DNA of 64,000 nt from Nocardioides aromaticivorans (GTDB lineage Bacteria > Actinomycetota > Actinomycetes > Propionibacteriales > Nocardioidaceae), in contig NZ_JACBZM010000002.1 in the NCBI RefSeq assembly GCF_013408525.1, positions 62,001 through 126,000 on the forward strand, in the 5' to 3' direction. Within the stretch, counting starts at the first letter, position 1. The number at the start of each line of letters is the position of its first letter. The notes under the pieces were generated by a model. That model ran no database searches, had not been told where the DNA came from, and saw nothing but the letters and a program-made list of their open reading frames with translations. Shown piece after piece: positions 16,284 through 58,830 of this stretch. The translations under genes were made by a program, and so were the position numbers.

Positions 16284-16310
16284 GCAACCTCGACCGACCC
16301 CGATCGGACA
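16284..16310 (-). promoter_or_regulatory. TGTCCGA-N15-GTTGC promoter-like element, copy B
   Basis: Minus strand: TGTCCGA at 16310-16304, 15 nt, then GTTGCTTCTTG from 16288. It reads toward the operon starting at 16217. The transcript would carry a leader of about 55 nt with a Shine-Dalgarno. It mirrors copy A, so the two make divergent promoters whose TGTCCGA motifs are separated by 93 nt. Confidence 0.65.
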
Positions 16311-16403
16311 CCTCGACCCCGACGACTCGCGAACTTTCAGACCTCGCCAGACTCACCAAAGCCCTCGCACCCCATGCACTGTCGGAACTCGGTGCCGGGC
16401 AGG
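16311..16403. other. Gap between divergent promoters; possible oriT region
   Basis: This 93-bp stretch separates copies A and B of the conserved element and lies directly upstream of the relaxase gene, where oriT is often found. I see no convincing nic-like inverted repeat by eye. The flanking 34-nt arms (16280-16313 and 16401-16434) are imperfect inverted repeats simply because the two promoter copies face apart. Confidence 0.3.
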
Positions 16404-16436
16404 TGTCCGAAACCGGGTCGCGGCGGTTGCTTCTCC
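16404..16436 (+). promoter_or_regulatory. TGTCCGA-N15-GTTGC promoter-like element, copy A
   Basis: Plus strand: TGTCCGA 16404-16410, 15 nt, GTTGCTTCTCC 16426-16436. An in-frame GTG (16442) lies 16 nt after the first G of GTTGC and an ATG three bases later. No Shine-Dalgarno is present. It is the presumed promoter of the relaxase gene. Confidence 0.7.
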
Positions 16437-16441
16437 GTGGC

Positions 16442-19400
16442 GTGATGGGTGTGCACAAGCTGACCGCGGGAGACGGGTACACGTACCTGACCCGCCAGGT
16501 CGCCGTGCACGATGCGACCGACCGCGGCCATGCGGGACTGGCCGACTACTACGCCGAGAAGGGCGAGTCACCGGGTCGTTGGTTCGGCGCCGGGCTCGGT
16601 GCGCTCGACCTCGAGGCGGGCTCGCAGGTCACCGAGGCCCACATGCGGAACCTGTTCGGCGAGGGTCGCCACCCCGACGCGGAGCGTCTGGAGAACGCGG
16701 CGCTGGACGCCGGGAAGAGCGTCGAGCAGGCCAAGAAGGCCTCCCAGCTCGGCCGCGTGTTCGCGCGGTACCTGGGCAATCAGCCGGAGTTCATCCAGGA
16801 GACCGCCAAGCGCTACATCTCCTACAACCTGGCCAACGGCGAGCACTGGAAGACCCCGGTTCCGGCCGAGGTGCGGGCGAAGATCCGCACCGAATTGGGT
16901 AACGAGCACTTCCTCCGTGAGCACGGCCGGGAGCCGATCGACGACCGTGAGCGCGGCTCCTTCATGGCCAAGGCGACCCGGCAGCAGACCACCGCGGTGG
17001 CCGGCTACGACCTCACCTTCGCCCCGGTGAAGTCCGTCTCGACGCTGTGGGCCCTGGCCGATCGCGACGTCGCCAAGGAGATCGAGGCAGCCCACCACTC
17101 GGCCGTCGCGGCCACGCTGTCGTGGCTGGAGAAGGAGGTGCTGTTCACGCGCCGCGGCCGCGGCGGGCTCCAGCAGGTCAAGGCGAACGGGCTGATCGCG
17201 GGCATGTTCACCCACCGCGACGCCCGCTCGTCCGACCCTCACTTGCACACCCACGTCGCGGTCAGCAACAAGGTCCAGGACGAGACCGGCCGCTGGCTCG
17301 CGGTCGACGGGCGCGTTCTCTACAAGGCCAACGTCACCCTCGCGGAGATGTACAACACCCTCATCGAGTCCGAGCTGATCGCCCGATTGGGAGTGCGGTT
17401 CGAGAACCGCAGGAGCGGTTTGGACAAGGGTGTCGACAAGCGGCCCGTGCGCGAGATCGTCGGCGTCGACGAGCGTCTGGCCAAGACCTGGTCCAAGCGG
17501 CACAGCGCCATTGAGGCACGCCGCCGCGAGCTGGCGGCCGCCTTCCAGTCCGAGCACGGTCGCCCGCCGACCGAAGGTGAGGCCGTCACCCTCGCGGAGA
17601 AGGCGTGGGACCAGACCCGGCAGGCCAAGCACGCACCCCGTGCCGAAGCCGATCAGCGGGCCGCTTGGCTGGCCGAGGCCGCCGCCATCATCGGCAGCGA
17701 GCAGGCCGTCCGTGACATGGTCGAGGACTGCCTCGGCCATCGCCCGGACGCCCAGGACGTCACCGACGAGTGGGTCGCCGAGACCGCGCACCGGGTCGTC
17801 GAACGGGTCGCCGAGGACCGTGCAACCTGGCAGGTCTGGCACCTGCGCGCCGAGGCACAGCGCCAGGCACGCGCCCACGGGGTCCGGCTGCCCGACCTCG
17901 ACGCCGCCGTGGATCGCGTGGTGGCCACCGCGATCGAGGAGCACTCGATCGCCTTCAACGACCCCGACCCGCTCACCCACGCGACCACTGCGGCCGAGCA
18001 GGAAGTGACGATCCCCGATCCCCTGCAGCGCGTCGAACACGGCGGGAGCGGCGAGGAGATCGTCAGCGTCTACAGCCTCGCCGGCGCCCGCCAGTACACC
18101 TCCCAGGCCGTGATCGACGCCGAACGACGCATTGTCGAGTCCGCCCGCCGCACCGGCGGCCGCGCCATCAGCGAAGTACGCGTCGGCATCGCGATCGCCG
18201 AAGCCGCCGCCAACGAGCTCCAGCTCAACGCCGCCCAGCAGTCCCTTGTCCGCGAGATGGCCACCAGCGGCCGAGCCGTCCAGCTCGCCCTCGCGCCCGC
18301 CGGCACCGGCAAGACCACCGCCATGCAGGTCCTCACCCGCGCATGGCAGGACTCCGGCGGAACCGTCATCGGCCTCGCCCCCTCCGCGGTCGCTGCCCAA
18401 GAACTGGGCGCCTCCATCAACCCTGAAGCCGGCGACGCGGGCGCCACGAAGGCCAAGGGACTGCTGAACGGGCCATGGCGCCCGGGCCGGAAGAAGGTTC
18501 GCGCCGACACTCTGGCCAAGCTCGTGTGGCACGCCAAGCACGGCGGAGCACCGACCTGGATGGAGAAGATCAACCCCACGACCCTCGTCCTGATCGACGA
18601 GGCGGGCATGGCGGCGACCACAGATCTGGCAGCCGCTATCGACTACATCACCTCCCGCGGCGGCCAGGTGCGGCTCGTCGGTGATGACCGGCAGCTCGCC
18701 TCGGTCGCCGCCGGCGGCGTCCTGCGCGACATCTCTCACCAGATCGGCGCGGTCACCCTCAGCGAAGTGCACCGCTTCCGCAACCCCGACGGCAGCCTCA
18801 ATCACGCCGAAGCAGCCGCCACCCTCGCGCTGCGCGACGGCGACCCGTCGGCGATCGCGTTCTACGCCGACCGCGGCCGCATCCATGTCGGCGACCTCGG
18901 GGCCTGCGCCGACCAGGCCTACGCCGCGTGGGCCGCTGACCGTACCGACGGCACTGACTCAGTCCTGATCGCACCCACCCGAGAGATCGTTGCCGAGCTC
19001 AACACCCGCGCCCGCAACGACCGCCTCGCTGGGATCGACGAGAAGGCGATCGGGCGCGTCTTGACGCTGGCCGACGGCACCAAGGTGTCCGAAGGTGACC
19101 GGATCATCACCCGCGAGAACGACCGCCGCCTACGCATCAGCCGCACCAACTGGGTCAAGAACGGCGACCGCTGGCACGTCAAGAAGGTCAACGCCGACGG
19201 CTCCCTGCGCGTGGTCCACGACCAACTCGGCAAGACCATCAGCCTGCCCGCCGACTACGTCTCCAAGACCGTCCAGCTCGGGTACGCCACCACCGTTCAC
19301 GGCGCGCAGGGCATCACCACCGGCACCTGCCACGTCGTCCTCACCGGTGACGAAGACCGCAACCTGCTCTACGTCGCGCTGTCGCGGGGCAAGTTCGCCA

Positions 19401-22363
19401 ACCACCTTTACCTCAACGTCGCCAGCGACGGCGACCCGCACAACCTGATCCGGCCTGAGGCACTGATCCCGCCGACCGCACTCGACCGGATCGCCGAGAT
19501 GCTGCGCCGCGACGGCTCGCCGGTCTCCGCGACCACCACGCTGCGCGAGCAGGCCAACCCGCACCAGCTGCTCGGCGACATGGCCGCCCGCTACCACGAC
19601 GCCGTCACGGCCGGCGCCGAGAACCTCATCGGTCCCGTCGGCATGGACAAGATCGACGCGCACGCCGAAACGCTCCTCACGGGACTCACCGAGGCCCCGG
19701 CCTGGCCGACATTGCGGGCCCATCTCGCCCTGATCGCGCTCGACGAGCACAGCCCCTTGAAGCTGCTGACCGCCGCCGTGGGCGTCGGTTCGCTGGCCGA
19801 TGCACGCGACCCCGCCGCTGTGCTCGACGCCCGCATCGACGACCTCGTCGCGGAACTCACCGCGGCCCGGCCACACGACCCGGACACTCCCCCGCCCACC
19901 GACGGGCCGCTGCCGTGGCTGCCCGGCATCCCCGGCCGACTGGCCGAGGCCCACGACTGGGGGCCGTTCGCGGCCGCCTACCACCAGCTCGTGCGCGAGC
20001 AAATCGACGCCGTACGCGAGGAGGCTCGGGGCTGGACGGGCGCCACCGCGCCCGTGTGGGCACAGCCCTTCCTCGAGGACGAAGAGGCCGACCTGCGGGC
20101 CGATCTCGCGGTGTGGCGGGCAGTGGCCAGGACTGACGAGAACGACCTGCGCCCCACCGGCGACCGCACCATCGGCGCCCCGGGCGCCTACCAGGCCAAG
20201 CTCAACCGGGCCGTCCGCTCGGCACGTCCCAGCTACCCCTTCTCCCAGCGCACTTGGTACCAGGTGCTGCCGGAGATCGTCCGCGCCGACCCTTGGATCA
20301 CGCCGCTGTGCCAGCGACTCGCCCGGCTAGAACGCGCAGGGTTGCCCGTCACCGATTACATCCAGCAGGCGCTCGCCGCCGATCCCTCGCTCTCGGGCAG
20401 CGAGTCCGCCACCGACGCGGACACGTCTGCAGGCGCGCGGCCGCTGCCCGACGAGCAGCAGGCTGCCGCGCTTTGGTGGCGGCTCGTTCCGCACCTCGGG
20501 CCGGCTGCACTCGGCGCCGACGAGCACTCAGCGAACCTGTTGCAGCCGACATGGCGCAGCGCGCTGACCGAACTGGTCGGCACCACCAAGGCCGAGTATC
20601 TGCAGAAGGCGCCAGCGTGGCCCGCGCTCGTGGCGGCGGTTGACGAAGCCTGCGAACACCACGGCTGGAATCCGACCGAGATCCTCTCCAGCGCTCTCGC
20701 CGGCGTGCCGCAAGACGGGTCTTTGACCGGTGTCGAGGTCGCCGACGCGCTCGTGCTGCGCATCGCCATGCTCACCGACCAGCCGGCAGAGCCGCCCGTG
20801 CATGGTGACGAGCCTTCGCCGTACAGCGACGCCGACATGCCCGCGGACCCGGACCTGCTGCCGCCGGAGGACGCCGACGAGTTCATGGCCGCCTTCTACC
20901 GTGACCGACCCGACGACACCGATATCCCTCTCGCCCACGCCCCCACTCCAGACGACTACGACACCCTCGCGACCGAGCCGGTCGCCTGGGAGCCGGACCT
21001 CGTCGAGCACGAGCCAGCGCCGTACGACGCCGGCGCGGCCGCTCACCACCTGTACGTCGAGGACCCGTACGCGACCCCCCTGCCGTGGGAACAGGCCGAC
21101 GAGGTCACCGCCGAGCACGCCTTCCCAGACCCGAACCAGATCCCGGCCGAGCGGATCCACGAACTCAACCAGCAGGCACTGGCCTACTTCGAGTCCTGCT
21201 ACCCGCGCTCGTGGGCACCGGGCTATCTTCGCGAGCGGCTAGGGACCGACCTCGCCGACCACACCACCTACGCCGTGGGGTACGCACCCGGAGGTGGCCG
21301 CAGCCTGATGCGGCACCTCACCGAGCAGGGAGCCACCCCCGACGAGCTGGAGCAGGCCGGCCTCGTCTCCCAGCGTGAACGCAACGACGGCACGACGTAC
21401 TACCGCGACTTCTTCCGCGACCGACTCATCATGCCCATCCGCGACCCCCATGACCCGAGCGGGCAGGCGATCCTCGGCTTCGTCGGCCGCCGCAACCCCA
21501 ACAAGACCGACGACGACTACGCCGGACCGAAGTACCTCAACACCCGCACCACCCCGGTCTTCACCAAGGGCGAGGCACTCTTCGGGTACGCCGAGGCCCG
21601 CGAACCTCTCACCGACGGCGCGCTCCCGGTCATCGTCGAGGGCCCCATGGACGCGCTGGCCATCACCCTGGGCAGCAACGGCACCGCCGTCGGCATCGCC
21701 CCCATGGGAACCGCGCTCACCGTCAACCAGATCAGGCTGCTCCGTGCCCACATCGACATGGTCGACGGACGCGACCGCATCGCCGTCGCCACCGACTCCG
21801 ACCCGGCCGGCTGGAAGTCGGCACAGAAGGCCTTCTGGCACCTGACCGCCGCGGACCTCGACCCCACCCACCTTGACCTGCCCGACGGACTCGACCCAGC
21901 CAAACTGTTCGAGACCCAGGGCGCCGCCGCGATCACCGCCGCCATCGACAACCGATCCCCCCTCGGCGACGCGATGATCGACCACCTGCTCCGCACCGCC
22001 GGACACTGGTCCGACACCGACGTCCGGCAGAAGCTCATCCACCAGACCGCCCGAGTGCTCGGCTCCCGCGGGTCCGAACACTGGCTCGACGGCTTCGAGC
22101 GGCTCCGCAACCGGCTCCACCTCGCACCCGGCATCCTCGAGCACCAGACCGTCACCGAGAGCATGGAGCGCGACCGCAACCGCCCGGCCTACGCCCAAGC
22201 GCGCATCGACGAGATCAACGACGAGGCCCGCAAGCAGGCCGCCAAATCCGACAGCCCCCTTCGCCACGCCGCCGGAAGCAGGCTCGCCGCAAGCGCCGCC
22301 ACCATTCCGCCCGACCAGACGATGCCCCCTGGGGGGCGCGGTCCGGCCGCACCGTTACGGTGA
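16442..22363 (+). CDS. MobF relaxase-helicase-primase fusion
   Basis: About 1973 residues from GTG 16442 (ATG 16445 is the alternative). The frame is open back to 16235, but that would cover both promoter copies. Near the N-terminus KLTAGDGYTYL carries the candidate catalytic tyrosines of TrwC-type relaxases. The metal triad is HLHTH at residues 267-271. A superfamily-1 helicase follows, with Walker A GTGKTT near 621-626, Walker B LIDEAGM near 717, and a C-terminal helicase motif with VHGAQG. The last ~450 residues contain a DnaG-like primase/TOPRIM region (GFVGRRNPNK, IVEGPMDALAI, ATDSDPAGWKS). It would nick oriT, unwind the strand and prime replacement synthesis. Expression is probably from copy A of the conserved promoter element. 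Confidence 0.9.
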   Translation: MMGVHKLTAGDGYTYLTRQVAVHDATDRGHAGLADYYAEKGESPGRWFGAGLGALDLEAGSQVTEAHMRNLFGEGRHPDAERLENAALDAGKSVEQAKKASQLGRVFARYLGNQPEFIQETAKRYISYNLANGEHWKTPVPAEVRAKIRTELGNEHFLREHGREPIDDRERGSFMAKATRQQTTAVAGYDLTFAPVKSVSTLWALADRDVAKEIEAAHHSAVAATLSWLEKEVLFTRRGRGGLQQVKANGLIAGMFTHRDARSSDPHLHTHVAVSNKVQDETGRWLAVDGRVLYKANVTLAEMYNTLIESELIARLGVRFENRRSGLDKGVDKRPVREIVGVDERLAKTWSKRHSAIEARRRELAAAFQSEHGRPPTEGEAVTLAEKAWDQTRQAKHAPRAEADQRAAWLAEAAAIIGSEQAVRDMVEDCLGHRPDAQDVTDEWVAETAHRVVERVAEDRATWQVWHLRAEAQRQARAHGVRLPDLDAAVDRVVATAIEEHSIAFNDPDPLTHATTAAEQEVTIPDPLQRVEHGGSGEEIVSVYSLAGARQYTSQAVIDAERRIVESARRTGGRAISEVRVGIAIAEAAANELQLNAAQQSLVREMATSGRAVQLALAPAGTGKTTAMQVLTRAWQDSGGTVIGLAPSAVAAQELGASINPEAGDAGATKAKGLLNGPWRPGRKKVRADTLAKLVWHAKHGGAPTWMEKINPTTLVLIDEAGMAATTDLAAAIDYITSRGGQVRLVGDDRQLASVAAGGVLRDISHQIGAVTLSEVHRFRNPDGSLNHAEAAATLALRDGDPSAIAFYADRGRIHVGDLGACADQAYAAWAADRTDGTDSVLIAPTREIVAELNTRARNDRLAGIDEKAIGRVLTLADGTKVSEGDRIITRENDRRLRISRTNWVKNGDRWHVKKVNADGSLRVVHDQLGKTISLPADYVSKTVQLGYATTVHGAQGITTGTCHVVLTGDEDRNLLYVALSRGKFANHLYLNVASDGDPHNLIRPEALIPPTALDRIAEMLRRDGSPVSATTTLREQANPHQLLGDMAARYHDAVTAGAENLIGPVGMDKIDAHAETLLTGLTEAPAWPTLRAHLALIALDEHSPLKLLTAAVGVGSLADARDPAAVLDARIDDLVAELTAARPHDPDTPPPTDGPLPWLPGIPGRLAEAHDWGPFAAAYHQLVREQIDAVREEARGWTGATAPVWAQPFLEDEEADLRADLAVWRAVARTDENDLRPTGDRTIGAPGAYQAKLNRAVRSARPSYPFSQRTWYQVLPEIVRADPWITPLCQRLARLERAGLPVTDYIQQALAADPSLSGSESATDADTSAGARPLPDEQQAAALWWRLVPHLGPAALGADEHSANLLQPTWRSALTELVGTTKAEYLQKAPAWPALVAAVDEACEHHGWNPTEILSSALAGVPQDGSLTGVEVADALVLRIAMLTDQPAEPPVHGDEPSPYSDADMPADPDLLPPEDADEFMAAFYRDRPDDTDIPLAHAPTPDDYDTLATEPVAWEPDLVEHEPAPYDAGAAAHHLYVEDPYATPLPWEQADEVTAEHAFPDPNQIPAERIHELNQQALAYFESCYPRSWAPGYLRERLGTDLADHTTYAVGYAPGGGRSLMRHLTEQGATPDELEQAGLVSQRERNDGTTYYRDFFRDRLIMPIRDPHDPSGQAILGFVGRRNPNKTDDDYAGPKYLNTRTTPVFTKGEALFGYAEAREPLTDGALPVIVEGPMDALAITLGSNGTAVGIAPMGTALTVNQIRLLRAHIDMVDGRDRIAVATDSDPAGWKSAQKAFWHLTAADLDPTHLDLPDGLDPAKLFETQGAAAITAAIDNRSPLGDAMIDHLLRTAGHWSDTDVRQKLIHQTARVLGSRGSEHWLDGFERLRNRLHLAPGILEHQTVTESMERDRNRPAYAQARIDEINDEARKQAAKSDSPLRHAAGSRLAASAATIPPDQTMPPGGRGPAAPLR

Positions 22364-33485: not shown

Positions 33486-34958
33486 CTACTTCGGCATCCC
33501 GAGCCGCTGCCGGGTCCGGGACACCGGCTCGGTTGGCAGCGTCGGTCCGGTGGTCGCCGGGTGGATGGGCTGCGTCTCCGGTTGGGGTGCGCGGGCCGCG
33601 AGCCGGGCACGCTTCTGCGCGGCGAGGAGTTCCTTGCCGCGCTTTCCGTCGATGCAGCGGTGCAGGTTCGCGATGATCGGGTCGTACATCTCGGCCAGCA
33701 CGAGCGCCTTGCGCTGCTCGATGCGACGCAGTTCGGCCGGTTCGAGGATGGGCACCCGCCGCTGGTCGTAGGACCGGTCCATCACCCCGAACAGTTCGTG
33801 CCCGCGCGCCGAGTACCGGGTCTCGGTGTGGCTGGTCGATCCGATCAGGTCGGACAGCTCCTTGTAGAAGCCGATGTCCTTGCCGCCACCGAAGACCACC
33901 AGGTTGTTCGACAGCCCGTAGATGGTGCGGGCCTCGTCCTCGCCGTAGCAGACCACGAACTGCCGCCATGTCTGGGCCGCGAGGATGAAGGAGAGCCCGA
34001 GCGCGCGCTCGTTGGCCATCCGGGTCGACAGCGTCGGGATGGGCGCGGTCGACGGGAGCTCGTCGAGACAGGCGAGGAACGGGGGGCACAGCCGCCCGTG
34101 CGGTGAGGTCTCCCCCAGCCGCTTGGCGGTGTCGAGGATCTGCTCGGTGACTGCCGTCATCAGCGGCGAGGCACTGGCGTACGGGTCGTCGCGGCCGAGC
34201 AGGTAGATCGTGCCGCCGTCCCGAATGAGGGCCTCGAGGTCGGTGGCCGGCCGGGTCGCGGAGGGAACGCAGCGCTCCCGGATCGAGCGCTGGAAGAACA
34301 ACGCCATCGCCTGCTGGACGGTCGTGATCGTGTTGCCGGCGGTCCTCTCGTCGCCGTACAGGGCTCCGCGCAGCAGCCCGTCCCACAGCGGCTCCGCGGC
34401 GGGGTGGGTACGTAGGATCTCCTCGGCCTGCGGGTACTCGCGCGGGCTGGAGACCCACATCAGCACCTCTTCCAGGCTGATGCCGGCGATCGCCGCGGCG
34501 TGGAAGTACGCCTGAAGGACCTTCGCGCACTCGCCGGCGTAGAACCGGGCGGCCTGGTCGGAGGACTGGGAGGTGGCGCCCTTGATGGTTCCGTTCGCGA
34601 ACGCCTTCGCCCGCCGTTCCGCGAGCATCGCGTCCTCGCAGCCCGCGATGCAGTCCCACACCAGCTCCGGGGTGCCGGGTGCGGCGTTGAACGGATCCAA
34701 CACGGCAACGGGGCCGAGCTTCTGGCGGGCCTCCAGGGTGAGGAACAGGTCCTCGGGCTTGGTAAGGGTCACCAGCGCGGCACCGGGCGCGTCGAGCAGT
34801 GCAGGCACCAGAAGGTCGAGGGTCTTGCCCGACCCCTGGGGGCCGATGACGCAGGTGGTCCGGTCGAAGGGCACCCACAGTTCGGGTCCGCTGCGTCCGG
34901 CCTGGCCGAGTCGCCAGCCGACGTCGTGGGGCTTCACATGCTTGAGGGCGGTGGTCAC
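33486..34958 (-). CDS. T4SS coupling protein (VirD4/TraG-like ATPase)
   Basis: 490 residues from GTG 34958 with GAGAGGA upstream. Walker A GPQGSGKTLDLLVP lies near residue 45 and Walker B LACLDELPS near 280. The segments LGLSFILAAQTWRQF and GGKDIGFYKELSDLIG are typical of VirD4/TraG. The N-terminal membrane segments normally found in this family are absent; they may be supplied by the two-TM protein encoded just upstream (34991-35479). The protein links the relaxosome to the secretion channel. Confidence 0.9.
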   Translation of the reverse strand: MTTALKHVKPHDVGWRLGQAGRSGPELWVPFDRTTCVIGPQGSGKTLDLLVPALLDAPGAALVTLTKPEDLFLTLEARQKLGPVAVLDPFNAAPGTPELVWDCIAGCEDAMLAERRAKAFANGTIKGATSQSSDQAARFYAGECAKVLQAYFHAAAIAGISLEEVLMWVSSPREYPQAEEILRTHPAAEPLWDGLLRGALYGDERTAGNTITTVQQAMALFFQRSIRERCVPSATRPATDLEALIRDGGTIYLLGRDDPYASASPLMTAVTEQILDTAKRLGETSPHGRLCPPFLACLDELPSTAPIPTLSTRMANERALGLSFILAAQTWRQFVVCYGEDEARTIYGLSNNLVVFGGGKDIGFYKELSDLIGSTSHTETRYSARGHELFGVMDRSYDQRRVPILEPAELRRIEQRKALVLAEMYDPIIANLHRCIDGKRGKELLAAQKRARLAARAPQPETQPIHPATTGPTLPTEPVSRTRQRLGMPK

Positions 34959-34990: not shown

Positions 34991-35479
34991 CTACTTGGTG
35001 CCGACGGGGGTCCGCCGCCCCGGGCGGGCGTAGAGGTCGGGTCGGATCACCGCGGCGCTCTTGCGCAGCCGCGGCACCCCGAGCGCCTCCGCGGCCTGCG
35101 TCGGGGTGGCCAGGCCGTGCCGGGAACCGGCGCCGGTCAGGTCGCGCATCCACATCCCGACGACGACGGTGCAACCGAGAACCAGCACCTCGCCGAGGAG
35201 CGTGAGCACCCACATCACCGCATCCGAGGGCAGCGCAGCGGCGACGCCGCGGGGCAGGCCCGCACCGAAGTGGCCGTGTAGCAAACCGCCGTAGGCGTCG
35301 AGCAGCTGTTCGTTCGGTAGCGCGAAGTTTCCCGAGGTGGCGCCCGCGACGACGCCTTGGACGACCAGCGGAGTGACCAGAAGGAAGAACAGGCCGGCCA
35401 GGAGGGCGGCCACCTTGAACTCTCCCGCCGTCGGGGCGACGTTGGTGAACCGGGCGCGCCGGGACCGTTCCATGCTCAT
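34991..35479 (-). CDS. Two-TM membrane protein, partner of the coupling protein
   Basis: 162 residues from ATG 35479. Hydrophobic segments at about 24-46 (AALLAGLFFLLVTPLVV) and 85-110 (MWVLTLLGEVLVLGCTVVVG) are separated by an ~40-residue loop. It directly precedes the coupling protein, which lacks its own membrane anchor, and overlaps the P-loop gene by ATGA. It may be the detached N-terminal half of VirD4; that is inference. Confidence 0.75.
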   Translation of the reverse strand: MSMERSRRARFTNVAPTAGEFKVAALLAGLFFLLVTPLVVQGVVAGATSGNFALPNEQLLDAYGGLLHGHFGAGLPRGVAAALPSDAVMWVLTLLGEVLVLGCTVVVGMWMRDLTGAGSRHGLATPTQAAEALGVPRLRKSAAVIRPDLYARPGRRTPVGTK

Positions 35480-36099
35480 GAGGCGTCCTCTCTTGAGGTA
35501 GTAGCGGTGGGGTTCATCGCAGCCGCCATCCACGCGCCTGCCGGTGCCTGCCAGCGGTGGCACGGGAAGTCGATCGGCCCCCGTAGATCCGGGATGACTG
35601 CGACCGTGCCCATGGGCCAGTCCAGGCGTCCCTGCCCGTCCAGGACCGCGGCCTCGGCCGGGTCCGCGTTCTCGGGGCGAACCAGGCCCAGGCATGCGAT
35701 GTCGGTGGCGAGCAGGGCGCGACCGGCCAGGCTGTTGCCGCCGTGGGAGGTCAGGACGGTGCGTGCCCGGCCGACGGGCAGCAGGGCGAGTCGTTCGTCG
35801 TCGAGCAGGTCCATGTCGTCGACCACGACCAGACAGGCTCCCGGACGGCAGTCGCACCCGATCGGTTCGTCCAGCTGGTCGGGGTGTGCCGGCTCGCAGC
35901 GCAGGTCTGCCCATTCGCTGGGCGCTTGGGCGTACACGTGGGCGTGCCGCCGGGTGTTCGCCAGCCACCACCGGGTGAGGTAGCGCGCGGTGGTGGTCTT
36001 GCCTCGGCCGACGTCGCCGACCAGCAGCAGCGGCCGGGCGCTGCTGGTGTCGAACCCGGCGGCCTGGCCGTCAACTGTGGTGCCGATGCGTACGCCCAT
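35476..36099 (-). CDS. P-loop ATPase of the transfer region
   Basis: 207 residues from ATG 36099. Walker A GDVGRGKTTT near residue 28, Walker B LVVVDDMD near 95, and a sensor-like TVLTSHGG follow. A CDCRPGAC stretch sits between the two. The ATG lies exactly 15 nt after the first G of GTTGC in copy C of the conserved promoter element, with no Shine-Dalgarno. It resembles small FtsK/TraG-like ATPases of actinobacterial elements and is the first gene of the coupling-protein operon. Confidence 0.75.
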   Translation of the reverse strand: MGVRIGTTVDGQAAGFDTSSARPLLLVGDVGRGKTTTARYLTRWWLANTRRHAHVYAQAPSEWADLRCEPAHPDQLDEPIGCDCRPGACLVVVDDMDLLDDERLALLPVGRARTVLTSHGGNSLAGRALLATDIACLGLVRPENADPAEAAVLDGQGRLDWPMGTVAVIPDLRGPIDFPCHRWQAPAGAWMAAAMNPTATTSREDAS

Positions 36100-42428: not shown

Positions 42429-42766
42429 CCGTGCTTTCACGTACCGCGCGGCGCCGGTCGAGAGTTGTCGCAACATCCTCACGCCACCGATAAGCAACCG
42501 CAGCGCGCACGATTCGGACAATCTGGCGCTGACGAATCTGGTCACGGGCCGCAGCGTGGCGGCTCAGCGTCCCCCCATCCGTCCCCCCGAACCGTCGAAG
42601 GGCGGGGGGACGTGGCGCCCTACACCGCGTTTATGCAGGTCAGGCGGCGTCCCCCCGAAACATCAAGGAGATTCCAGAGCCGGTGGCTCGAGTGGTGGAG
42701 GAGGAGTCCCGCAAGCGGATCCACTTCTCGCGGAGCTCGACGCGACAGCGTTCGTGGTCGGTCTGC
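42429..42766. other. Gap with GC-rich hairpin
   Basis: Contains copy G of the conserved promoter-like element (minus strand) and a 9-bp hairpin GTCCCCCCG (42581-42589) / CGGGGGGAC (42603-42611), a likely bidirectional terminator between the recombinase operon and the convergent HxlR gene. Further CGTCCCCCC runs occur near 42568 and 42651. No gene is seen. Confidence 0.5.
42488..42520 (-). promoter_or_regulatory. TGTCCGA-N15-GTTGC promoter-like element, orphan copy G
   Basis: Minus strand: TGTCCGA at 42520-42514, 15 nt, GTTGCTTATCG from 42498. The following GTGGCGTGA resembles the start region of the relaxase copy A. No leftward gene follows; the plus-strand recombinase gene occupies that DNA. 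It is probably a remnant or decoy. Confidence 0.5.
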
Positions 42767-50944: not shown

Positions 50945-52486
50945 CTAAAGAGCCGGGTCAATCGCGTCGTTGGTGTACGTGAGCCGCCGCTCCAGCGGCG
51001 TCAGCAGCGTCTGCACCTTGTAGCGCTGGTCGCCGACCATCCACAGGGCGCGTCCCTTCTCCTGCATCGCCCAGTTGGTGATGACGCTCTGCTGCATCTC
51101 CGAGAGCCCCATCAGGCGGCCGAGCTCGTCGGCGACCGACTCGTCCTGGCCCATCAGGATCCGGACGTCGGAGAGGTTGAGCAGGTCCTTGGCGATCTGG
51201 GCGGCCTGGCTGCCTTGGTCGCCGGCCGAGAGCGGGTCGGACGGCTTGTGGTAGGTCACCAGCTGGATGTCACCTTCGGTGCGGGAGAGCCGCAGGTTGG
51301 CGTCCAGCGCCATCACCGCGTCTAGCGATAGGCGGGTCTGCAGCCATGCCTCGTCTCGGAGCACGATCCGCCGATCGCCCGCCGAGGCGGTTTCGCGCAT
51401 GCCCTGACCCCAGGAGTTGAGGCACATCAGCGCGATGCCCACGGCGACCTTGTTGCCGGTCTCGTGCAGCGAGCGCAGCGACAGCGTCTGGATCGGTGCA
51501 CGCCAGTCGGGGTTGAAGGTCGACTCGGTGTCGAACATGCCCTGCAGCGATCCTTCGCAGAGGGCACCCAGCGCGTCGCGCAGCGGCCGGGTGCCGTTGT
51601 AGAACGCCTGCGGGCTCTCGTAGCGGCAGTCGTCGACCAGCTCCTTGGTGGGCGAATCCAGTGCGGCCCAGACCTGCGGGATGGTGACCGGCTTGAGCCG
51701 GGAGGCACCCACAGACCATCCGGTCAGGTGCCGCAGCACCTTGTTGATGACCCGCTCCTCGGTCGGGGTGAACGTCACGCCCTGGGAGCCGATCAGGCCC
51801 CGGATCAGGAACAGCCATCGGTTGAAGATCACGTTCGCGCGGCGGTGCTGCTCCTCGCGGGACTGCTTCTCCCAGTCCACGCCGAGAGGGCCGAGGTCGA
51901 GCGGGTTGATCCTGCCCGCGAGACCGGGGCCGATGCGGAACGGGTCGACGCCGAGGAACCGGGCCAGGTCCTCGTACTCGTCCTTGACGTCGCCGAGCAC
52001 CAGCGACCGGTAGCCGTAGCGGATCATCCGGAGCATGAACGCCTTGACGGTCGCGGACTTGCCGCGGCCGGGCTTGCCGAAGATGAAGATGTTGGGGTTG
52101 GTGACCGGGATCGAGTCGTCGAGCACCCAGCCCATCGGGTCGCAGTAAAACTTGCCACCCGAGAGCACGTCGTAGCCCATCTCCGCGCCCCAGGGAGGGA
52201 GTCCGTCACCGGAGATCAGCGGCCACAGGACTGGGGTCTCCTCAGATGTCATCTGGTAGCCGGCCAGCGGCGGCATCGTGGGAGCCCACCCATGTCCCAT
52301 CCGGCGTACGCCGTTGGCCTTGACCGAGCCGGGGAACAGCTTCTCCGCCGGCGGCTCTGCGACCGGCGCCGACTTCCGCGGCATCGTGGTCCCGAAGTCC
52401 GACAACAGGTCGTCGATCGTCCGCGACGCCGGACGCGCGTTCTTCGACCCGCCACGAGCACGGGTCTTGGTCGCGACCACGCTCAC
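50945..52486 (-). CDS. VirB4-like T4SS ATPase (C-terminal module)
   Basis: 513 residues from GTG 52486, which overlaps the preceding stop. Walker A GKPGRGKSATVKAF near residue 125 and Walker B RIVLRDEAWL near 370, followed by QLVTYHKPSD. It corresponds to the ATPase half of VirB4; the N-terminal half appears to be the separate SCO6880-type gene at 53552-55087. It powers assembly and transport of the conjugation channel. The transposon has inserted immediately after its stop codon. Confidence 0.9.
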   Translation of the reverse strand: MSVVATKTRARGGSKNARPASRTIDDLLSDFGTTMPRKSAPVAEPPAEKLFPGSVKANGVRRMGHGWAPTMPPLAGYQMTSEETPVLWPLISGDGLPPWGAEMGYDVLSGGKFYCDPMGWVLDDSIPVTNPNIFIFGKPGRGKSATVKAFMLRMIRYGYRSLVLGDVKDEYEDLARFLGVDPFRIGPGLAGRINPLDLGPLGVDWEKQSREEQHRRANVIFNRWLFLIRGLIGSQGVTFTPTEERVINKVLRHLTGWSVGASRLKPVTIPQVWAALDSPTKELVDDCRYESPQAFYNGTRPLRDALGALCEGSLQGMFDTESTFNPDWRAPIQTLSLRSLHETGNKVAVGIALMCLNSWGQGMRETASAGDRRIVLRDEAWLQTRLSLDAVMALDANLRLSRTEGDIQLVTYHKPSDPLSAGDQGSQAAQIAKDLLNLSDVRILMGQDESVADELGRLMGLSEMQQSVITNWAMQEKGRALWMVGDQRYKVQTLLTPLERRLTYTNDAIDPAL

Positions 52487-52951: not shown

Positions 52952-52984
52952 GGAGAAGCAACAGCCCGGCCCTCAGATCGGACA
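52952..52984 (-). promoter_or_regulatory. TGTCCGA-N15-GTTGC promoter-like element, copy D
   Basis: Minus strand: TGTCCGA 52984-52978, 15 nt, GTTGCTTCTCC from 52962, then GGGC-ATG (52947). A nested palindrome surrounds the TGTCCGA: CAGAT...ATCTG inside and GCCCGGC...GCCGGGC outside. The palindrome could be an operator, or the terminator of the upstream gene. Confidence 0.75.
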
Positions 52985-53017
52985 TCTGGTGGCCGGGCTC
53001 TTTGAATCCGATGTGCC

Positions 53018-53467: not shown

Positions 53468-53500
53468 GGAGAAGCAACAGCCCGGCCGCCAGATCGGACA
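53468..53500 (-). promoter_or_regulatory. TGTCCGA-N15-GTTGC promoter-like element, copy E
   Basis: Minus strand: TGTCCGA 53500-53494, 15 nt, GTTGCTTCTCC from 53478. Almost identical to copy D, including the nested palindromes CAGAT...ATCTG and GCCCGG...CCGGGC. Here no ATG follows at 15 nt; the gene has a leader with a Shine-Dalgarno. Confidence 0.7.
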
Positions 53501-53551
53501 TCTGACGACCGGGCTGTTTCAGGCCGGGGCCGAACTGCGACGCTTCTCGGG

Positions 53552-55087
53552 TTAGCGCCGCTTCTTCGGTATGCCTGCCCCCAGGGGGATCGCGGACACG
53601 GCGAAGGCCGCGTCGTGTGCCCCGTCCAGGGGGAGTGGGGTGAAGCCGCTGATACGGATCGAGGCGTCGAGACGACGGCCGAAGTCCTGGACGTTCCACC
53701 CGGCCGGAACCGTGACTGAGACCGCCGAGGACACCTTGACCAGCGAGCGACCCATCTCGAGCTTCTCGTCACGCTCGTGCAGCTTGCCGACCGACTGGCG
53801 GTCCTTGGCCCGCTCGACCTTGCCAGCCTTCTCACGCAGCGTGCCGGCCATCAACGCTGACATCTGCGCCCGGCCGGTGGACCTGTCCGCCGCCTGCTGC
53901 GAGACCGGCCGGTAGAACACCGTCAGTGCGCGCCGTTCGCCGGGCTGGGAGGGGACCAGTACCCGCGCCAGTGCGCCCATCCGGGCGCCCTTGCGGGGCA
54001 GAAGGATCGTGGAGGAGATCGACTCCCACTCGCCGTGCCGGTAGGACCGCATCGCGGTCGACGCGTTCGTGGGACCAGCGGCGCCAAGCGGGACACCGGC
54101 CGCGATCGACGGGTCGTCACGGTGATGGATCGCCGCGTCCGCGAGCGCGGGCGCATCACCGGGCTCGAAGCCGGTGCGGATCGCCACGGCGAGCTCGGAG
54201 CTATCGAGCCAGTTCACCCGCGTGCAGCCGATCGACCCGGTCAGCCGGGCCTCGACCTCGGCCAGCACCGAGTACAGGATCCTCGCCCGGCCCATCACGC
54301 CGCGCCCGGCGCGCTTGGCGTCCTTGTTGATGACGTCTTCTCGAACCACCACTGTCACGAACGCCTCGCGGCGCACCGCCGCGCCGGCAGTCATCGCCTC
54401 CAGTTGGGCATTGACCCGGGCCGAAACCTCCGGCTCGTCGGGTCTCGCGTTGTGACGCACCCACTCGTCGCGCTCGGTGCCGTCGTCGGGGATGGTGCGG
54501 ACCTGCACCACGACCAGGTCGATCTGGTTGCCAGCGGTTGCGGCCTCCATCATTTCGGTGAGGCCGGCGCCCATGCGGAACCGGTCCGCGTCGTCGCTCA
54601 TCCCGATGCCCGGGTGGACGACCCGCGCGGTGGCCGCCCACGTGCGGGTTGCGTGGTTCTGGATGATCGCGGGGCGTGCGGTCTGCCCGGTCATCGGCGG
54701 GCCGTCGTGGATCTGGATGCTGGACAGGATGCCGGGCAGGTCCGCCTCGCCTGCCTCGCCGTCGTCCTCGTCGTCCTCGTCGCCGAGGTCGAGGTCGCCG
54801 GCGGCGGCCTTGGACTGGAACCGGGACCAGCCGAACGCCGCGCCGACCAGGTGCCGGAACAGGACGCCGATCCACTGGAATGCCGAGTGGCCTCGGATCG
54901 GTAGGCAGGTCAGTAGCGCAACCAGGCCCCACATCGGGACGAGGCCCAGCAGCGCGAGCCACTGCCCGATGGCGATCGCCATCCAGGTCGGGAACCCGGC
55001 GGCCAGCACCAGGAAGAACTGGGGTCCGGTGAGTCCGAAGAGCCAGGCCTGCCGGTCACGGGTTGCGGATGCTCCGTAGACGCTCAT
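53552..55087 (-). CDS. SCO6880-family T4SS protein (VirB3/VirB4-N-like)
   Basis: 511 residues. Residues about 20-60 contain two hydrophobic segments in tandem (GPQFFLVLAAGFPTWMAIAI, LVPMWGLVALLTCLPI), a PrgI/VirB3-like region. The long soluble remainder corresponds to the VirB4 N-terminal domain as in SCO6880. An acidic stretch of D/E lies near residue 100. There is no Walker A motif. It overlaps the VirB6-like gene by ATGA (55084-55087). With the 50945 ATPase it would make a full VirB3-VirB4 unit. Confidence 0.85.
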   Translation of the reverse strand: MSVYGASATRDRQAWLFGLTGPQFFLVLAAGFPTWMAIAIGQWLALLGLVPMWGLVALLTCLPIRGHSAFQWIGVLFRHLVGAAFGWSRFQSKAAAGDLDLGDEDDEDDGEAGEADLPGILSSIQIHDGPPMTGQTARPAIIQNHATRTWAATARVVHPGIGMSDDADRFRMGAGLTEMMEAATAGNQIDLVVVQVRTIPDDGTERDEWVRHNARPDEPEVSARVNAQLEAMTAGAAVRREAFVTVVVREDVINKDAKRAGRGVMGRARILYSVLAEVEARLTGSIGCTRVNWLDSSELAVAIRTGFEPGDAPALADAAIHHRDDPSIAAGVPLGAAGPTNASTAMRSYRHGEWESISSTILLPRKGARMGALARVLVPSQPGERRALTVFYRPVSQQAADRSTGRAQMSALMAGTLREKAGKVERAKDRQSVGKLHERDEKLEMGRSLVKVSSAVSVTVPAGWNVQDFGRRLDASIRISGFTPLPLDGAHDAAFAVSAIPLGAGIPKKRR

Positions 55088-56460
55088 GCGACGAACGCTC
55101 CGTCCTCGACTGCGGCCTGGGCCTCGGGTGGGATGTCGTTGGCGACGCCGTCGCCGTTGGTGTCGTTGAACGGCCGGCGCTGCTGGCCGTGCTGTCCTTG
55201 ACGCTTCTGCTTGGGGGTGTGGTCGGTCGGGTAGTAGCCCTGGTTGCCGATGCCGGCCTGGCCGAGCACGTCGACACTCATCGAGGCGCCGGCCTGGGCG
55301 ACCTTCCCGGTCTTCTCCATGGCACCACCGACGACCCCGCCGACCTTGCCGCCGAACTTCTTGAACCCCGAGGACTGGAACCTGTTCGCGGTCTCGGCAT
55401 CAGCACCGTTCTCCGAGGTCGTGCGGCCGTCCGAGGCGGTCTCGCTCGCGGCACCGGATCCGGACGCCTGGGCGCCTGCGCCCTTGCCCTTCAACAGTCC
55501 GGCGACGCCGCCGTTGGCGTCCATCGTCGAGCGGAACGAGGCACCCGACGCGGTGCCGGGGTCTACGAAGGCCAGCATCCGGAACAACACCAGCGGCATG
55601 AAGCAGGCCACCAGCATGATGATCGACCCGACCACTGACATGCCGATGTTCTCTGACGTCGAACTGAAGTGCAGCGGATTGTCGCCGAGGCCCTGCTCCT
55701 GGCCGTCGGGCATGCCGGCCCACGCGAACTGTGTGCCCATCCCCACCACCAGCGCCAGGAGCGGCTCCATCAGCACGCAGGCCATGAACCAGCGGATCGA
55801 CTTCCACATCCACGACTTGGTGCCCTCCGACAACGCTCCCGCCGCCGACATCGGCATGGTGGCCACCAGGATCAGCAGCGCCGCCGAGCGCACCATCATG
55901 ATCACCATGTGACCAAAGGACGCCGGGATCAGGATGAACAGCGCACAGATCCCGAGCGTGGCTGCCTGTGTCGTGCCCGAGACGCGGTCGACGAACCCGT
56001 CGCCGGCCGCGTAGCCGGAGAAGCTGTCCACGCCGAGCAGGGTGTCCAAGATGCCCTTGGTAAGCCCGGACGCGGCGGCGATGAATCCCGCACTCACGGT
56101 GATCCAGCAGGACAGGACTGCGCCGTACTGGACCACTCCCGCGGCCAAGGTGCCGAAACCGCGGCCGTCCTGCCGGAGGACCGCCAGCCCGATCTGGCCG
56201 AACGCCATCACCAGGGCGATCACCAGGGCGATCCACAAGGTGACGGAGTAGAGCTTGGCCAGGTCGGGGTCGGCGACGTTGGGGGTGAAGTTGTCGATCA
56301 GTCCGAACGCGGTCTTGAGCAGCCACAGTGCGCCTGACCAGATGGACATCATCATCGAGGTGAAGCCGTCGGCCAGGCCCTCCTTGGCCTTGTCTCCGAG
56401 CCAGTTCAAGGGGTTGAGATCGATCATCGGGACGATGCCCGCAATGGTCTGCGTGCTCAT
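55084..56460 (-). CDS. VirB6/TrbL-like channel protein
   Basis: 458 residues from ATG 56460. The N-terminal 300 residues carry about six membrane segments (SVTLWIALVIALVMAFGQIG, AATLGICALFILIPASFGHMVIMMV, IGMSVVGSIIMLVACFMPLVLF), the pattern of TrbL/VirB6 with an NPLNWLGDKAKEG start. The C-terminal 150 residues are Gly/Ser-rich and soluble. Coupled to neighbours at both ends by ATGA. It would form the inner-membrane channel. Confidence 0.85.
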   Translation of the reverse strand: MSTQTIAGIVPMIDLNPLNWLGDKAKEGLADGFTSMMMSIWSGALWLLKTAFGLIDNFTPNVADPDLAKLYSVTLWIALVIALVMAFGQIGLAVLRQDGRGFGTLAAGVVQYGAVLSCWITVSAGFIAAASGLTKGILDTLLGVDSFSGYAAGDGFVDRVSGTTQAATLGICALFILIPASFGHMVIMMVRSAALLILVATMPMSAAGALSEGTKSWMWKSIRWFMACVLMEPLLALVVGMGTQFAWAGMPDGQEQGLGDNPLHFSSTSENIGMSVVGSIIMLVACFMPLVLFRMLAFVDPGTASGASFRSTMDANGGVAGLLKGKGAGAQASGSGAASETASDGRTTSENGADAETANRFQSSGFKKFGGKVGGVVGGAMEKTGKVAQAGASMSVDVLGQAGIGNQGYYPTDHTPKQKRQGQHGQQRRPFNDTNGDGVANDIPPEAQAAVEDGAFVA

Positions 56461-57275
56461 GACTGCGGCACCTCCAGCCACTGGTAGCCGGCGTCGAACG
56501 AGGCCTGGGAGCCGGGCCACAGCGACGGCGCCGGCGCCGGCTCCTCGCCCTCGCCAATCACCCAACGGTCGTCCTGCCACACCATGCGCTGGCAGTCGGC
56601 TGCCGCGACCTGCTGTGGCCGGCCCGACGCGGTAGTGGCGGTGATGATGAAGTCGATGCACGGGATGACGAAGTCGTCACCGACCGTGCCCTTGATGAAG
56701 CCCATCTTCGGCTCTGCGCCGATCGTGATGGTGTTCTGGGCGTCCGAGGACATTCCGGCCGACTCCAGGAGCGCGGCCAGGCCCTGCACACCCGACCAGC
56801 TCTCGGCCGTCGGACCGCCGGGTGCGGACCACGCAGTGATGACCTCCTGGGCCACTCGGACCGACGCCGACGTCAGCGCGGTCGTGTCGATCGCGGCGAG
56901 TTGGGCCAGAGCGCCCTCCGGGGTGTGCGGGAACCCGGTCGCAACACCGACCTCCCCCACCTCCATTGGTGCCGGAATCTCGATCGTGCCGGTCTCGCCC
57001 GACGACAGGCTTCCGGGCTGCGCGGCCTCCAGGGGCGCGTCGGGCAACTGCTTGTCGGCGAGCTGGTCCTGGGCGGACACAGCCGAATCGGACCCGGTTC
57101 CGTCTCCGGATGACGAGCCGGTGAGCATGCTGACCACCGACCACACGCCGCCCGCCGCCATGGCGAGGACGACGACGGCAGCGATCCCCAGCAGGATCTG
57201 CAGCCTGCGGCGGGTCCACTCGGTGTCGGGGTCAACCAGCTTTGCCTGGTAGACGTGTCGGGTCCGGTCGAACAT
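56457..57275 (-). CDS. VirB8/TcpC-like bitopic protein
   Basis: 272 residues from ATG 57275. One membrane segment at about 28-50 (LLGIAAVVVLAMAAGGVWSV), then a disordered Ser/Gly stretch, then a soluble C-terminal domain outside the membrane. The size and topology fit VirB8/TcpC-type proteins of Gram-positive conjugation systems. It starts 1 bp after the pilin-like gene stop. Confidence 0.7.
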   Translation of the reverse strand: MFDRTRHVYQAKLVDPDTEWTRRRLQILLGIAAVVVLAMAAGGVWSVVSMLTGSSSGDGTGSDSAVSAQDQLADKQLPDAPLEAAQPGSLSSGETGTIEIPAPMEVGEVGVATGFPHTPEGALAQLAAIDTTALTSASVRVAQEVITAWSAPGGPTAESWSGVQGLAALLESAGMSSDAQNTITIGAEPKMGFIKGTVGDDFVIPCIDFIITATTASGRPQQVAAADCQRMVWQDDRWVIGEGEEPAPAPSLWPGSQASFDAGYQWLEVPQS

Positions 57276-57276
57276 G

Positions 57277-57606
57277 TCAGCAGCCGTTCCCGACGATGCC
57301 GTTGAGGATGGCGTAGATGCAGACGAACGCGATCGCGCCGATCACGGTCCAGAACAGCCCCGAGGCGCCGATCTGAGCGGCCCGGCCCATCTGGCCGAAC
57401 TTCCCCACGATCAGTGCGCCCGACGAGGCGAAGCCGGCGCCGATGATGATGGCGATCACGCCGTACTTGACCCAGCCGAGGATGTCGTTGACGTACGGCT
57501 TGACGCCGGTCGGGGCCTGGGCGCAGACGTCGCCGACACCCTCGGCCCTGATGTGTCCCGCGGCCGCGATCTGGGTGGCGACCTCCGAGATGGTCTCGAT
57601 GATCAT
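57277..57606 (-). CDS. VirB2/pilin-like small membrane protein
   Basis: 109 residues. Two hydrophobic segments (VKYGVIAIIIGAGFASSGALIVG and GLFWTVIGAIAFVCIYAILNG) separated by a short polar loop, the layout of VirB2-type proteins. AGGAAAGAG lies 8-10 nt upstream of the ATG. A GNGC C-terminus and one internal Cys might form a disulphide. The position between the ParA-like and VirB8-like genes supports a T4SS role. Confidence 0.7.
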   Translation of the reverse strand: MIIETISEVATQIAAAGHIRAEGVGDVCAQAPTGVKPYVNDILGWVKYGVIAIIIGAGFASSGALIVGKFGQMGRAAQIGASGLFWTVIGAIAFVCIYAILNGIVGNGC

Positions 57607-57624
57607 CTTCTTCTCTCTTTCCTT

Positions 57625-58545
57625 TCACGTCCGGTTCGCGGTCAGCGGGCCGGTGATGGTGGTGATCCGCTCCAGCAGGCGCTGAGAGGGGCTTGTGAGC
57701 TGCTTGGGCAGCGGGTCAGGGCCCAGGCCCGGCAGGGCCTTGGCGGGTAGCAACGGCATGAACAGGACGGCCTCCTGCTGGCGCGCTGTGCGCAGCAGCC
57801 GGCCGGCGGCCGCGAACTCGCGATCGCTCCAGCGGGCTGCACCCACGACGACGACCACGACCCCGTCGCGGCCGAGCTGGTCCTCGACGTCGGCCAGCGC
57901 CGCCTCGGTCTGGCTCAATGCCAGACCGTGCGGCCGGGTCACCAGGACCTCTGCGCGTGCCGGCGTCGTGGCGACCCAAGAGCCCGCCCCGGAAGCGGCG
58001 AGCTCACGCATGGACCAGCCGGCGTCCAGAACCGTTAGGTCGACGCCATCCACCGACCGCGGGCGGGGCACCTCGCCAAGGACTCTTACCGGGTCCTCGA
58101 CACGGTCGATCAGCACACCGTCGCCGCGGCGGCCGCGGCGCCAGCCCTCGGCGGCGCCGAGTTCGGTGACAGTGGCGCCCAGCAGTCCCGACCAGGCCGG
58201 AGCTGCGGTATCAAGCACGCGGGTGCGGATACCTGCGGCGTCTGCGGCATCGGCCAGGGCCAGGGCGATCGTCGAGGCCCCGGCGCCAGCGTTGGCGGCA
58301 CGCACCCGCACCAGCGCCCCCGTCGCCGCGACGGCCTCGTCCGGCGTGCGGTCGGTGCCTCGGGGGGCCCGGCCCCGATCCTCGGCCGCTGCCGGCGGCG
58401 CCGCGATCGCCTGCGAGTCCTGGTCCTCGGCCGCGTCCGCTGTCGCGGTTCGCGTGGACGTGGTGGAGAACGTGCCGGCTGCCAGTGCGGCAGCCGCGGC
58501 CTGGAGCTCACGCGTGGAGTAGCGGGGCACGGTGCTGGTGCTCAT
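57625..58545 (-). CDS. ParA/MinD-like protein with degenerate P-loop
   Basis: 306 residues. The N-terminal 80 are Ala/Thr-rich and disordered. Then VRVRAANAGAGASTIALALADAA occupies the position of a deviant Walker A but lacks both lysines. LTVLDAGWSMRELA stands at the Walker A' / switch position. Overall it resembles CpaE/TadZ-like or DUF6668 proteins. It would probably bind but not hydrolyse nucleotide. It heads the T4SS operon with the small 58542 gene (ATGA overlap). Confidence 0.65.
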   Translation of the reverse strand: MSTSTVPRYSTRELQAAAAALAAGTFSTTSTRTATADAAEDQDSQAIAAPPAAAEDRGRAPRGTDRTPDEAVAATGALVRVRAANAGAGASTIALALADAADAAGIRTRVLDTAAPAWSGLLGATVTELGAAEGWRRGRRGDGVLIDRVEDPVRVLGEVPRPRSVDGVDLTVLDAGWSMRELAASGAGSWVATTPARAEVLVTRPHGLALSQTEAALADVEDQLGRDGVVVVVVGAARWSDREFAAAGRLLRTARQQEAVLFMPLLPAKALPGLGPDPLPKQLTSPSQRLLERITTITGPLTANRT

Positions 58546-58793
58546 CGGGCCGCCTCGATCCGTGCCGCCGCCCGGAGCCGCAGCGCCTCACGGAGAACGG
58601 CGGCAGGGGTGTTGCGGAGCACTTCGCGTGCCTCCGCGGCCTCCTCGGCGTCGGCGCGCAGGCGCGCAACCATCCGCTCGATGTCGGACAGCGCGTGGTC
58701 GACGCTGTGGTCGGCCACCACGTCCAGCAGCTGCGCGACGACCTCGGGGGTCGGCTCGGAGACGGTGACTGCGGTGTGTGCCTGCTCGCTCAT
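58542..58793 (-). CDS. Small helical protein, first gene of the T4SS operon
   Basis: 83 residues from ATG 58793. Almost wholly helical (VVAQLLDVVADHSVDHALSD, RADAEEAAEAREVL). The ATG lies exactly 15 nt after the first G of GTTGC in copy F of the conserved element and there is no Shine-Dalgarno. Overlaps the ParA-like gene by ATGA. Function unknown. Confidence 0.65.
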   Translation of the reverse strand: MSEQAHTAVTVSEPTPEVVAQLLDVVADHSVDHALSDIERMVARLRADAEEAAEAREVLRNTPAAVLREALRLRAAARIEAAR

Positions 58794-58797
58794 GTTT

Positions 58798-58830
58798 GGA
58801 GAAGCAACCGCGCCCTGTCCGGATCGGACA
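58798..58830 (-). promoter_or_regulatory. TGTCCGA-N15-GTTGC promoter-like element, copy F
   Basis: Minus strand: TGTCCGA 58830-58824, 15 nt, GTTGCTTCTCC from 58808, then AAAC-ATG (58793). A perfect 13-bp palindrome with a two-base centre, CGCGCCCTGTCCG / CGGACAGGGCGCG, covers the TGTCCGA. It may also terminate the upstream gene. Confidence 0.75.

Follow-up and report, generated by a model that had tools for sequence, protein, structure and literature searches.

The window analysed here is a stretch of 64,000 nucleotides (positions 62001-126000) of C2, a 187,947-bp replicon of Nocardioides aromaticivorans (G000) whose chromosome, C1, has 5,069,211 bp. Seven copies of a bipartite sequence, TGTCCGA-N15-GTTGC, are scattered over its transfer region. 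The sequence is genuine and highly specific: a promoter-like element of fixed spacing that belongs to a family of conjugative plasmids. Its reader is most likely a sigma-like factor which the plasmid itself encodes and which would direct a conjugation regulon. The candidate factor is a 295-aa protein encoded in the window (58869..59756, minus strand) and annotated as 'hypothetical protein'. An earlier note on this DNA had postulated that the transfer regulon has a sigma factor or activator of its own; the geometry of the element, the lack of a sigma-A -10, the restricted distribution and the plasmid-borne sigma-like protein all support that proposal. What is observed is the sequence of the copies, their spacing on C2, their distribution and position, and the synteny and co-occurrence; what is predicted is the fold of the protein, while polymerase binding, recognition of the promoter, the start site and the operator role of the repeats upstream of its gene are inferred.

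The seven copies in the window, designated A to G, had been described as having exactly 15 nt between TGTCCGA and GTTGC, and all seven indeed match TGTCCGA-N15-GTTGC exactly at the assigned positions and strands; for copy B the match stands, and the full span including the -10 side is 16278-16310 rather than 16310-16284. A scan of the whole genome for the exact form yields 12 copies on C2 (7 in the window and 5 outside it) and none on the 5.07-Mb chromosome. Among spacers of 5 to 30 scanned on C2, a spacing of 15 gives 12 matches and every other spacing 0 or 1; an order-swapped control gives 0 matches at each of these spacings, and a pattern with the spacing off by one base, at up to 3 mismatches, gives 0 on C2 and 1 on C1. 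When up to 3 mismatches are allowed, the window contains 90 matches versus a shuffle mean of 73 (2 of 100 shuffles reach 90), which barely exceeds chance, and therefore the signal resides in the exact copies. The conserved blocks, TGTCCGATC upstream and GTTGCTTCTCC downstream, are longer than hexamers, so that of the previously proposed hexamer pair, TGTCCG and GTTGCT, the -35/-10-like geometry holds and the hexamer length does not. In the 20-base form, TGTCCGATC-N13-GTTGCTTCTCC with up to 3 mismatches, there are 11 sites, all on C2 and none on C1 (reversed control, 0), and all 8 occurrences of GTTGCTTCTCC on C2 are part of a motif copy. By our own gene calling, the 12 copies on C2 are all intergenic, and 11 of them face a same-strand start within 143 nt, the exception being copy G.

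The 18-base form, TGTCCGA-N15-GTTGCTTCTCC, is present in 22 of 341 genomes of the same family (75 matches), with 0 matches of the reversed control in all 341. The same form was found in 46 stretches of the GTDB contig collection: 42 are labelled Nocardioides, one is from a Propionibacteriales metagenome-assembled genome and 3 are others. Matches in Streptomyces (L104), an uncultured organism (L121), Deltaproteobacteria (L141) and viral DNA (L143/L144, two stretches with one sequence) were judged from context to be chance matches and dropped. The search of related actinobacterial plasmids that the earlier note had called for reveals 11 sites each, at up to 3 mismatches and with 0 in the control, on two conjugative plasmids, pNOCA01 of Nocardioides JS614 and pTC1 of Paenarthrobacter aurescens TC1, which belongs to another order. 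The element appears to be restricted to this plasmid family plus chromosomal modules that look mobile, which agrees with a dedicated factor.

The position of the element relative to start codons is that of a promoter. From the fetched loci, 105 distinct sites were collected, of which 64 were left at 85% non-redundancy and 60 after the removal of 4 sites judged to be chance matches. ATG or GTG stands exactly 10 nt past GTTGC in 22 of these 60 sites, other offsets from 0 to 17 giving at most 5; among the 12 exact C2 sites, 5 have a start codon at this place. The distance leaves no room for a ribosome site between the element and such a start codon, and therefore these genes can be leaderless. 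If that start codon is taken as +1, TGTCCGA occupies -37 to -31 and GTTGC -15 to -11. At copy E and at the sites 174944 and 178399, the leader is longer and includes a stretch rich in purines that resembles a ribosome site, which fits a promoter rather than a translation signal. A TANNNT-type -10 of the housekeeping sigma-A, starting at -37 to -5 (some of these starts are excluded by the fixed letters of the pattern), is found in 0 of the 60 sites, in line with the original observation that the element follows no standard sigma-70 consensus. In the deposited annotation of pNOCA01, none of the 11 sites is within a gene, and for 4 of them the distance to an annotated start is exactly 4 nt; in that of pTC1, 8 of 11 are intergenic and 3 of those are 4 nt ahead of a start.

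The AlphaFold model of the 295-aa protein contains two helical domains, a sigma2-like one at residues ~24-168 and a sigma4-like one at 210-292, joined by a low-confidence linker and thus arranged in the order of sigma2 followed by sigma4. In the fold comparison, among the matches listed, all 50 PDB rows are sigma-type by title; region 2 of Mycobacterium tuberculosis SigC and region 4 of SigD are among the matches, and several phage sigma factors match weakly. A single-sequence AlphaFold model (pLDDT 49.5) was not used. The family of this protein, for which 7,999 candidates were scored, has 172 matches at E≤0.001. Matches to the sigma70 profile of the extracytoplasmic function (ECF) type, all of them below the threshold, are seen in 1 of 49 members of this protein family and, among 10 relatives that are more distant, in 3. 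Distant homologs (~26-41%; L160-L174) are spread over several genera of the bacterial family, a number of them on chromosome-size contigs, and no motif was detected near those whose surroundings were scanned (L200-L204). Given the modelled fold and the co-occurrence described below, the 295-aa protein is probably the reader of the element and would act on it as a sigma factor.

Orthologs of this protein and the element tend to be found together. Seven candidates per genome were scored among the 341 genomes, and orthologs of at least 54% identity were identified in 14; the exact 18-base motif is present in 12 of these 14 versus 10 of the 327 others (Fisher p 1.3e-14, relatedness ignored), and the two genomes with an ortholog and no exact motif (G230 and G257) contain variants ending in GTTGCTTGTCC, GTTGCCTGTCC or GTTGCCTCTCC. 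Without exception, the 15 fetched loci that encode such an ortholog have a motif copy behind its gene, in most cases 4 nt ahead of the same ~83-aa gene; TGTCCGA contains a single mismatch in 3 of these 15 copies, and the ortholog of G268 is split. Six loci encode homologues of at most 45%, and 5 of them have no copy and one a weak copy, base-shuffled DNA giving ~0.04 chance matches in each 20-kb locus. The extension of the -10 block tends to be shared between the F-type and D-type sites (counterparts of copies F and D) of the same element at 76 of 84 positions versus 64.1 in 14 of 16 elements, L189 and L196 having been left out because their stretches contain no D-type site, and at 35 of 42 versus 27.4 (p 0.004) when near relatives are collapsed to 7 elements. 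Such concordance is expected if the promoters of each plasmid track their own factor. Plasmid-type sites are also present in G096, G161 and G340, in whose assemblies an ortholog of at least 54% was not found.

In the mechanism that we favor, the element would be a promoter with TGTCCGATC as the -35, GTTGCTTCTCC as the -10, a fixed gap of 15 bp and a start ~10 nt past GTTGC. The divergent sigma70-like factor (58869-59756) would bind the core RNA polymerase of the host and direct it to about 12 promoters, namely those of relaxase, coupling-protein, type IV secretion system (T4SS)-like, Tad-pilus and other plasmid genes, and the messages from 5 of the 12 exact C2 sites could be leaderless, with the start codon as the expected transcript start. 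The gene of the factor itself lacks this promoter: its upstream region (59803..59930, minus strand) contains no copy of the motif and carries direct repeats, (T)GGTGAGC, which are probably the operator of a further regulator, presumably one that serves as an on/off switch. These repeats are present in 14 of the 16 orthologs examined, and in both others they are changed together to GGTGGGC; a single second pair exists elsewhere on C2, adjoining the site at 154746. A terminator-like hairpin (59955..59975, minus strand) lies further upstream, one of 2 such sites found versus 0.6 expected.

Several observations weigh against this reading. The searches with Pfam, NCBIfam and hhalign detect no Sigma70_r2, Sigma70_r4 or sigma70-ECF profile in the 295-aa protein, and because it lacks a recognizable sequence profile, we call it sigma-like and do not file it as a member of the sigma70 family. 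The -10 variants do not always follow the plasmid: C-type sites have GTTGCCTTTCC in three elements, and the F and D sites differ in G256 and G268 and partly in G155/G170. On pTC1, 3 of the 11 sites are within annotated genes, 2 of them under the relaxase gene as annotated. Our confidence is slightly lowered because these site-wise variants and the T4SS assignment of the operon behind copy F lend weaker support. The missing profile also fits the view, unlikely in our judgment, that the element is a binding site for an activator, either the 295-aa protein or another plasmid regulator, with a host sigma factor initiating transcription; a dimer or a tandem helix-turn-helix (HTH) could recognize the two conserved blocks, the starts of which are separated by 22 bp, and, according to the accessible text of the respective sources, AcaCD (PMC4605294) and SetCD (PMC4344509) are precedents for master activators encoded by plasmids or integrative and conjugative elements. 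This view is at odds with the absence of TANNNT from -37 to -5 in 60/60 sites, with the placement of the downstream block where sigma2 would act relative to the leaderless starts, and with the sigma-type titles of 50/50 PDB rows among the fold matches listed.

Reading by a chromosomal ECF sigma factor that the plasmid borrows from its host is quite improbable: ECF genes are often autoregulated and the chromosome has 0 sites at up to 3 mismatches of 20, the motif is found on plasmids of two orders, and the -10 variants partly follow the plasmid element. The host chromosome does yield 50 Sigma70_r2 matches, whereas C2 yields none, a classical sigma factor having been sought there and rejected (two Sigma70_r4_2 matches are below the cut-off), and the -35 of ECF41 promoters also begins with TGTC in the accessible text of PMC3426412. 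The two small HTH_17-type genes (HTH1/HTH2) that are frequent behind the element, and upstream of which many chromosomal copies lie, have a very slim chance of encoding its regulator. Four motif genomes (G096, G222, G290 and G340) contain no HTH1 match at E≤0.001, the best HTH1 match on C2 is no better than E 0.15, and many HTH1 genes have no motif; as a universal regulator, the pair was rejected on account of these four genomes and this plasmid. We give equally little credence to a structural, recombination or mRNA element in place of a promoter. Inverted repeats do overlap copies D, E and F (52963-52999, 53479-53515 and 58808-58838), and around some D-, E- and F-type copies of orthologous elements the pairing is preserved with both arms changed. 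Such repeats are limited to some site types (13% of the 60 sites score >=8 versus 3% in a re-paired control) and were rejected as a general part of the element, the orientation of which and position before starts are fixed.

Known master regulators of conjugation are mostly activators, repressors and peptide circuits. A literature search of titles and abstract openings, with many subscription papers outside its coverage, identified no plasmid-encoded sigma factor for conjugation. Phage-encoded sigma factors, by which a mobile element redirects the host polymerase to its own genes, include several weak fold matches of the 295-aa model; the regulon here differs in that it includes conjugative transfer. 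In the Tn916 family of Firmicutes elements, the sigma-like Orf7 likewise belongs to a conjugative element. With the ECF-type sigma70 factors, such as SigC and SigD of M. tuberculosis, the 295-aa protein shares the predicted order of helical domains (sigma2, linker, sigma4), but it has no significant profile match and an extra N-terminal helical part, and it is encoded on a conjugative plasmid. In the accessible text of PMC6540685, a sigma factor is named for phrI only. ECF41 promoters are given as TGTCACA-N16±1-CGTC, and the ECF41 genes as linked to carboxymuconolactone decarboxylase, oxidoreductase or epimerase genes, in the part of PMC3426412 available to us. The element is similarly bipartite, with a -35 that begins with TGTC and a comparable spacing, but here the -35 continues as CGATC, the -10 is GTTGCTTCTCC and the gap is fixed at 15 on C2, so that the ECF41 pattern does not describe it. 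According to the available text of PMC4605294, AcaCD is the master activator of IncA/C plasmids that switches on the xis promoter of SGI1. The likeness would consist in a plasmid-encoded master regulator of transfer genes whose site also stands before a gene in chromosomal islands, an excision gene in SGI1 and a putative one here; AcaCD is, however, an FlhDC-family activator, whereas the candidate in our case resembles a sigma factor and its site is in itself -35/-10-like.

The claim that six of the copies precede transfer operons is supported by Pfam matches above the cut-off for A and C, only by a sub-cut-off match for D and only by synteny for F, and is unproven for B and E. Copy A (16404..16436, plus strand; TGTCCGAAACCGGGTCGCGGCGGTTGCTTCTCC) is located 8 nt ahead of the ATG of a 1972-aa protein (16445..22363, plus strand), a MobF relaxase-helicase (TrwC 4.7e-85, AAA_30 1e-54) fused to C-terminal DnaG-N (DNAG_N 4.1e-21) and Toprim primase-like domains. 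Copy B (16278..16310, minus strand) is divergent from A, and the first gene behind it encodes a 126-aa protein (15837..16217, minus strand) with a weak HTH similarity (HTH_29, E 0.002, below the cut-off). Copy C (36104..36136, minus strand; GTTGCCTTTCC variant) lies 4 nt ahead of the ATG at 36099 of a 207-aa P-loop protein (35476..36099, minus strand; AAA_22 5e-7), with a 490-aa TraG/TraD coupling protein downstream (33486..34958, minus strand; TraG-D_C 1.7e-25, T4SS-DNA_transf 2e-17). Copy D (52952..52984, minus strand) is 4 nt ahead of the ATG at 52947, and its operon encodes a 511-aa P-loop ATPase (50945..52480, minus strand; TraG P-loop 3.1e-5, below its cut-off); copy E (53468..53500, minus strand) is 39 nt ahead of a 136-aa gene. 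Copy F (58798..58830, minus strand) is 4 nt ahead of the ATG at 58793 of an 83-aa gene that opens a six-gene operon (53552..58793, minus strand; 83, 306, 109, 272, 458 and 511 aa). None of these six proteins has a Pfam match over the cut-off; the operon is called T4SS-like because the gene in the place of its last one in pNOCA01, a plasmid typed as conjugative, is annotated as SCO6880 family. For copy G (42488..42520, minus strand; GTTGCTTATCG variant), a transfer operon directly behind it is not borne out: it faces three opposite-strand genes (39129-42520, recombinase-like by reading), and the next same-strand gene, 3.6 kb on, encodes an 894-aa endonuclease/SLT protein with SLT/CHAP features (36193..38877, minus strand). 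A pTC1 copy (30307-30339) has a similar setting, one of the three genes there being annotated as phage integrase family.

Outside the window, the C2 site at 133746 precedes an operon for a Tad/Flp-type pilus that spans window positions 60077-63716 and continues to C2 133596; matches to the T2SSE ATPase and to SAF exceed the cut-off, those to T2SSF and RcpC stay below it, and a LysM protein is also encoded. pNOCA01 annotates TadE and TadG-related proteins. This pilus may belong to the mating apparatus.

Ten motif genomes lack an ortholog of at least 54%. In seven of them (G119, G148, G159, G209, G259, G287 and G315), and also in G152, the copies are located in compact chromosomal modules that contain a relaxase gene, one motif and the two HTH_17-type genes (e.g. 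L175-L178, L181, L183 and L185), the motif being ahead of the HTH_17 pair and behind the relaxase gene; N. gansuensis and N. astragali are among the species with such a module. The relaxase is identified as TrwC by Pfam in L175 and by shared N-terminal sequence in the others; its gene is truncated in G159, split in two in L179 and beyond the stretch for G148. In G268, the motif and the HTH_17 pair are present with no relaxase in view, and G119 has an additional copy ahead of a different HTH gene (L180). A 392-aa gene, integrase-like by reading, is found near modules L175, L176 and L184. Of 11 stretches scanned, 4 (L177, L178, L185 and L192) have a tRNA whose 3' end faces the module at a distance of 88-261 bp, and 7 have none; exact matching of tRNA parts within the stretches found no second copy that would mark attachment repeats. 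The gene content suggests that these modules are satellites or mobilizable elements, and the HTH_17 pair might function in their excision. The modules look mobilizable with a MobF-type relaxase, whereas for the known canonical integrative and mobilizable elements MobP, MobQ, MobV or MobC are given in the available text of PMC5704250.

It is possible, although we would lean slightly against it, that the 295-aa proteins are a new plasmid-borne sigma lineage, unseen by profiles, which acts as a polymerase switch for conjugation, and that mobilizable elements with the same promoter before excisionase-like genes wake only with plasmid transfer. If so, transfer would be directly coupled to polymerase choice through a sigma-like factor of the plasmid's own and an orthogonal promoter, and the chromosomal modules with the same switch would behave as if eavesdropping on the plasmid. 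An unannotated protein family, including NOCA_RS00090 of pNOCA01 and AAur_pTC10022 of pTC1, would gain a functional prediction, such plasmids and possible satellites could be detected by a simple sequence test, and the pair would be a candidate orthogonal expression system for actinobacteria.

Among the remaining C2 sites outside the window, those at 154819 (one mismatch) and 174944 are ahead of a DUF1173 and a DUF4192 gene, respectively. C2 also encodes the BREX proteins BrxA, BrxB, BrxC and PglX (identified by PADLOC; 156564-164722, outside the window). Finally, a 529-aa transposase-like gene is present in two look-alike copies (window 29584-31173 and C2 175357-176946) that are equal in length and identical in their first 110 residues.

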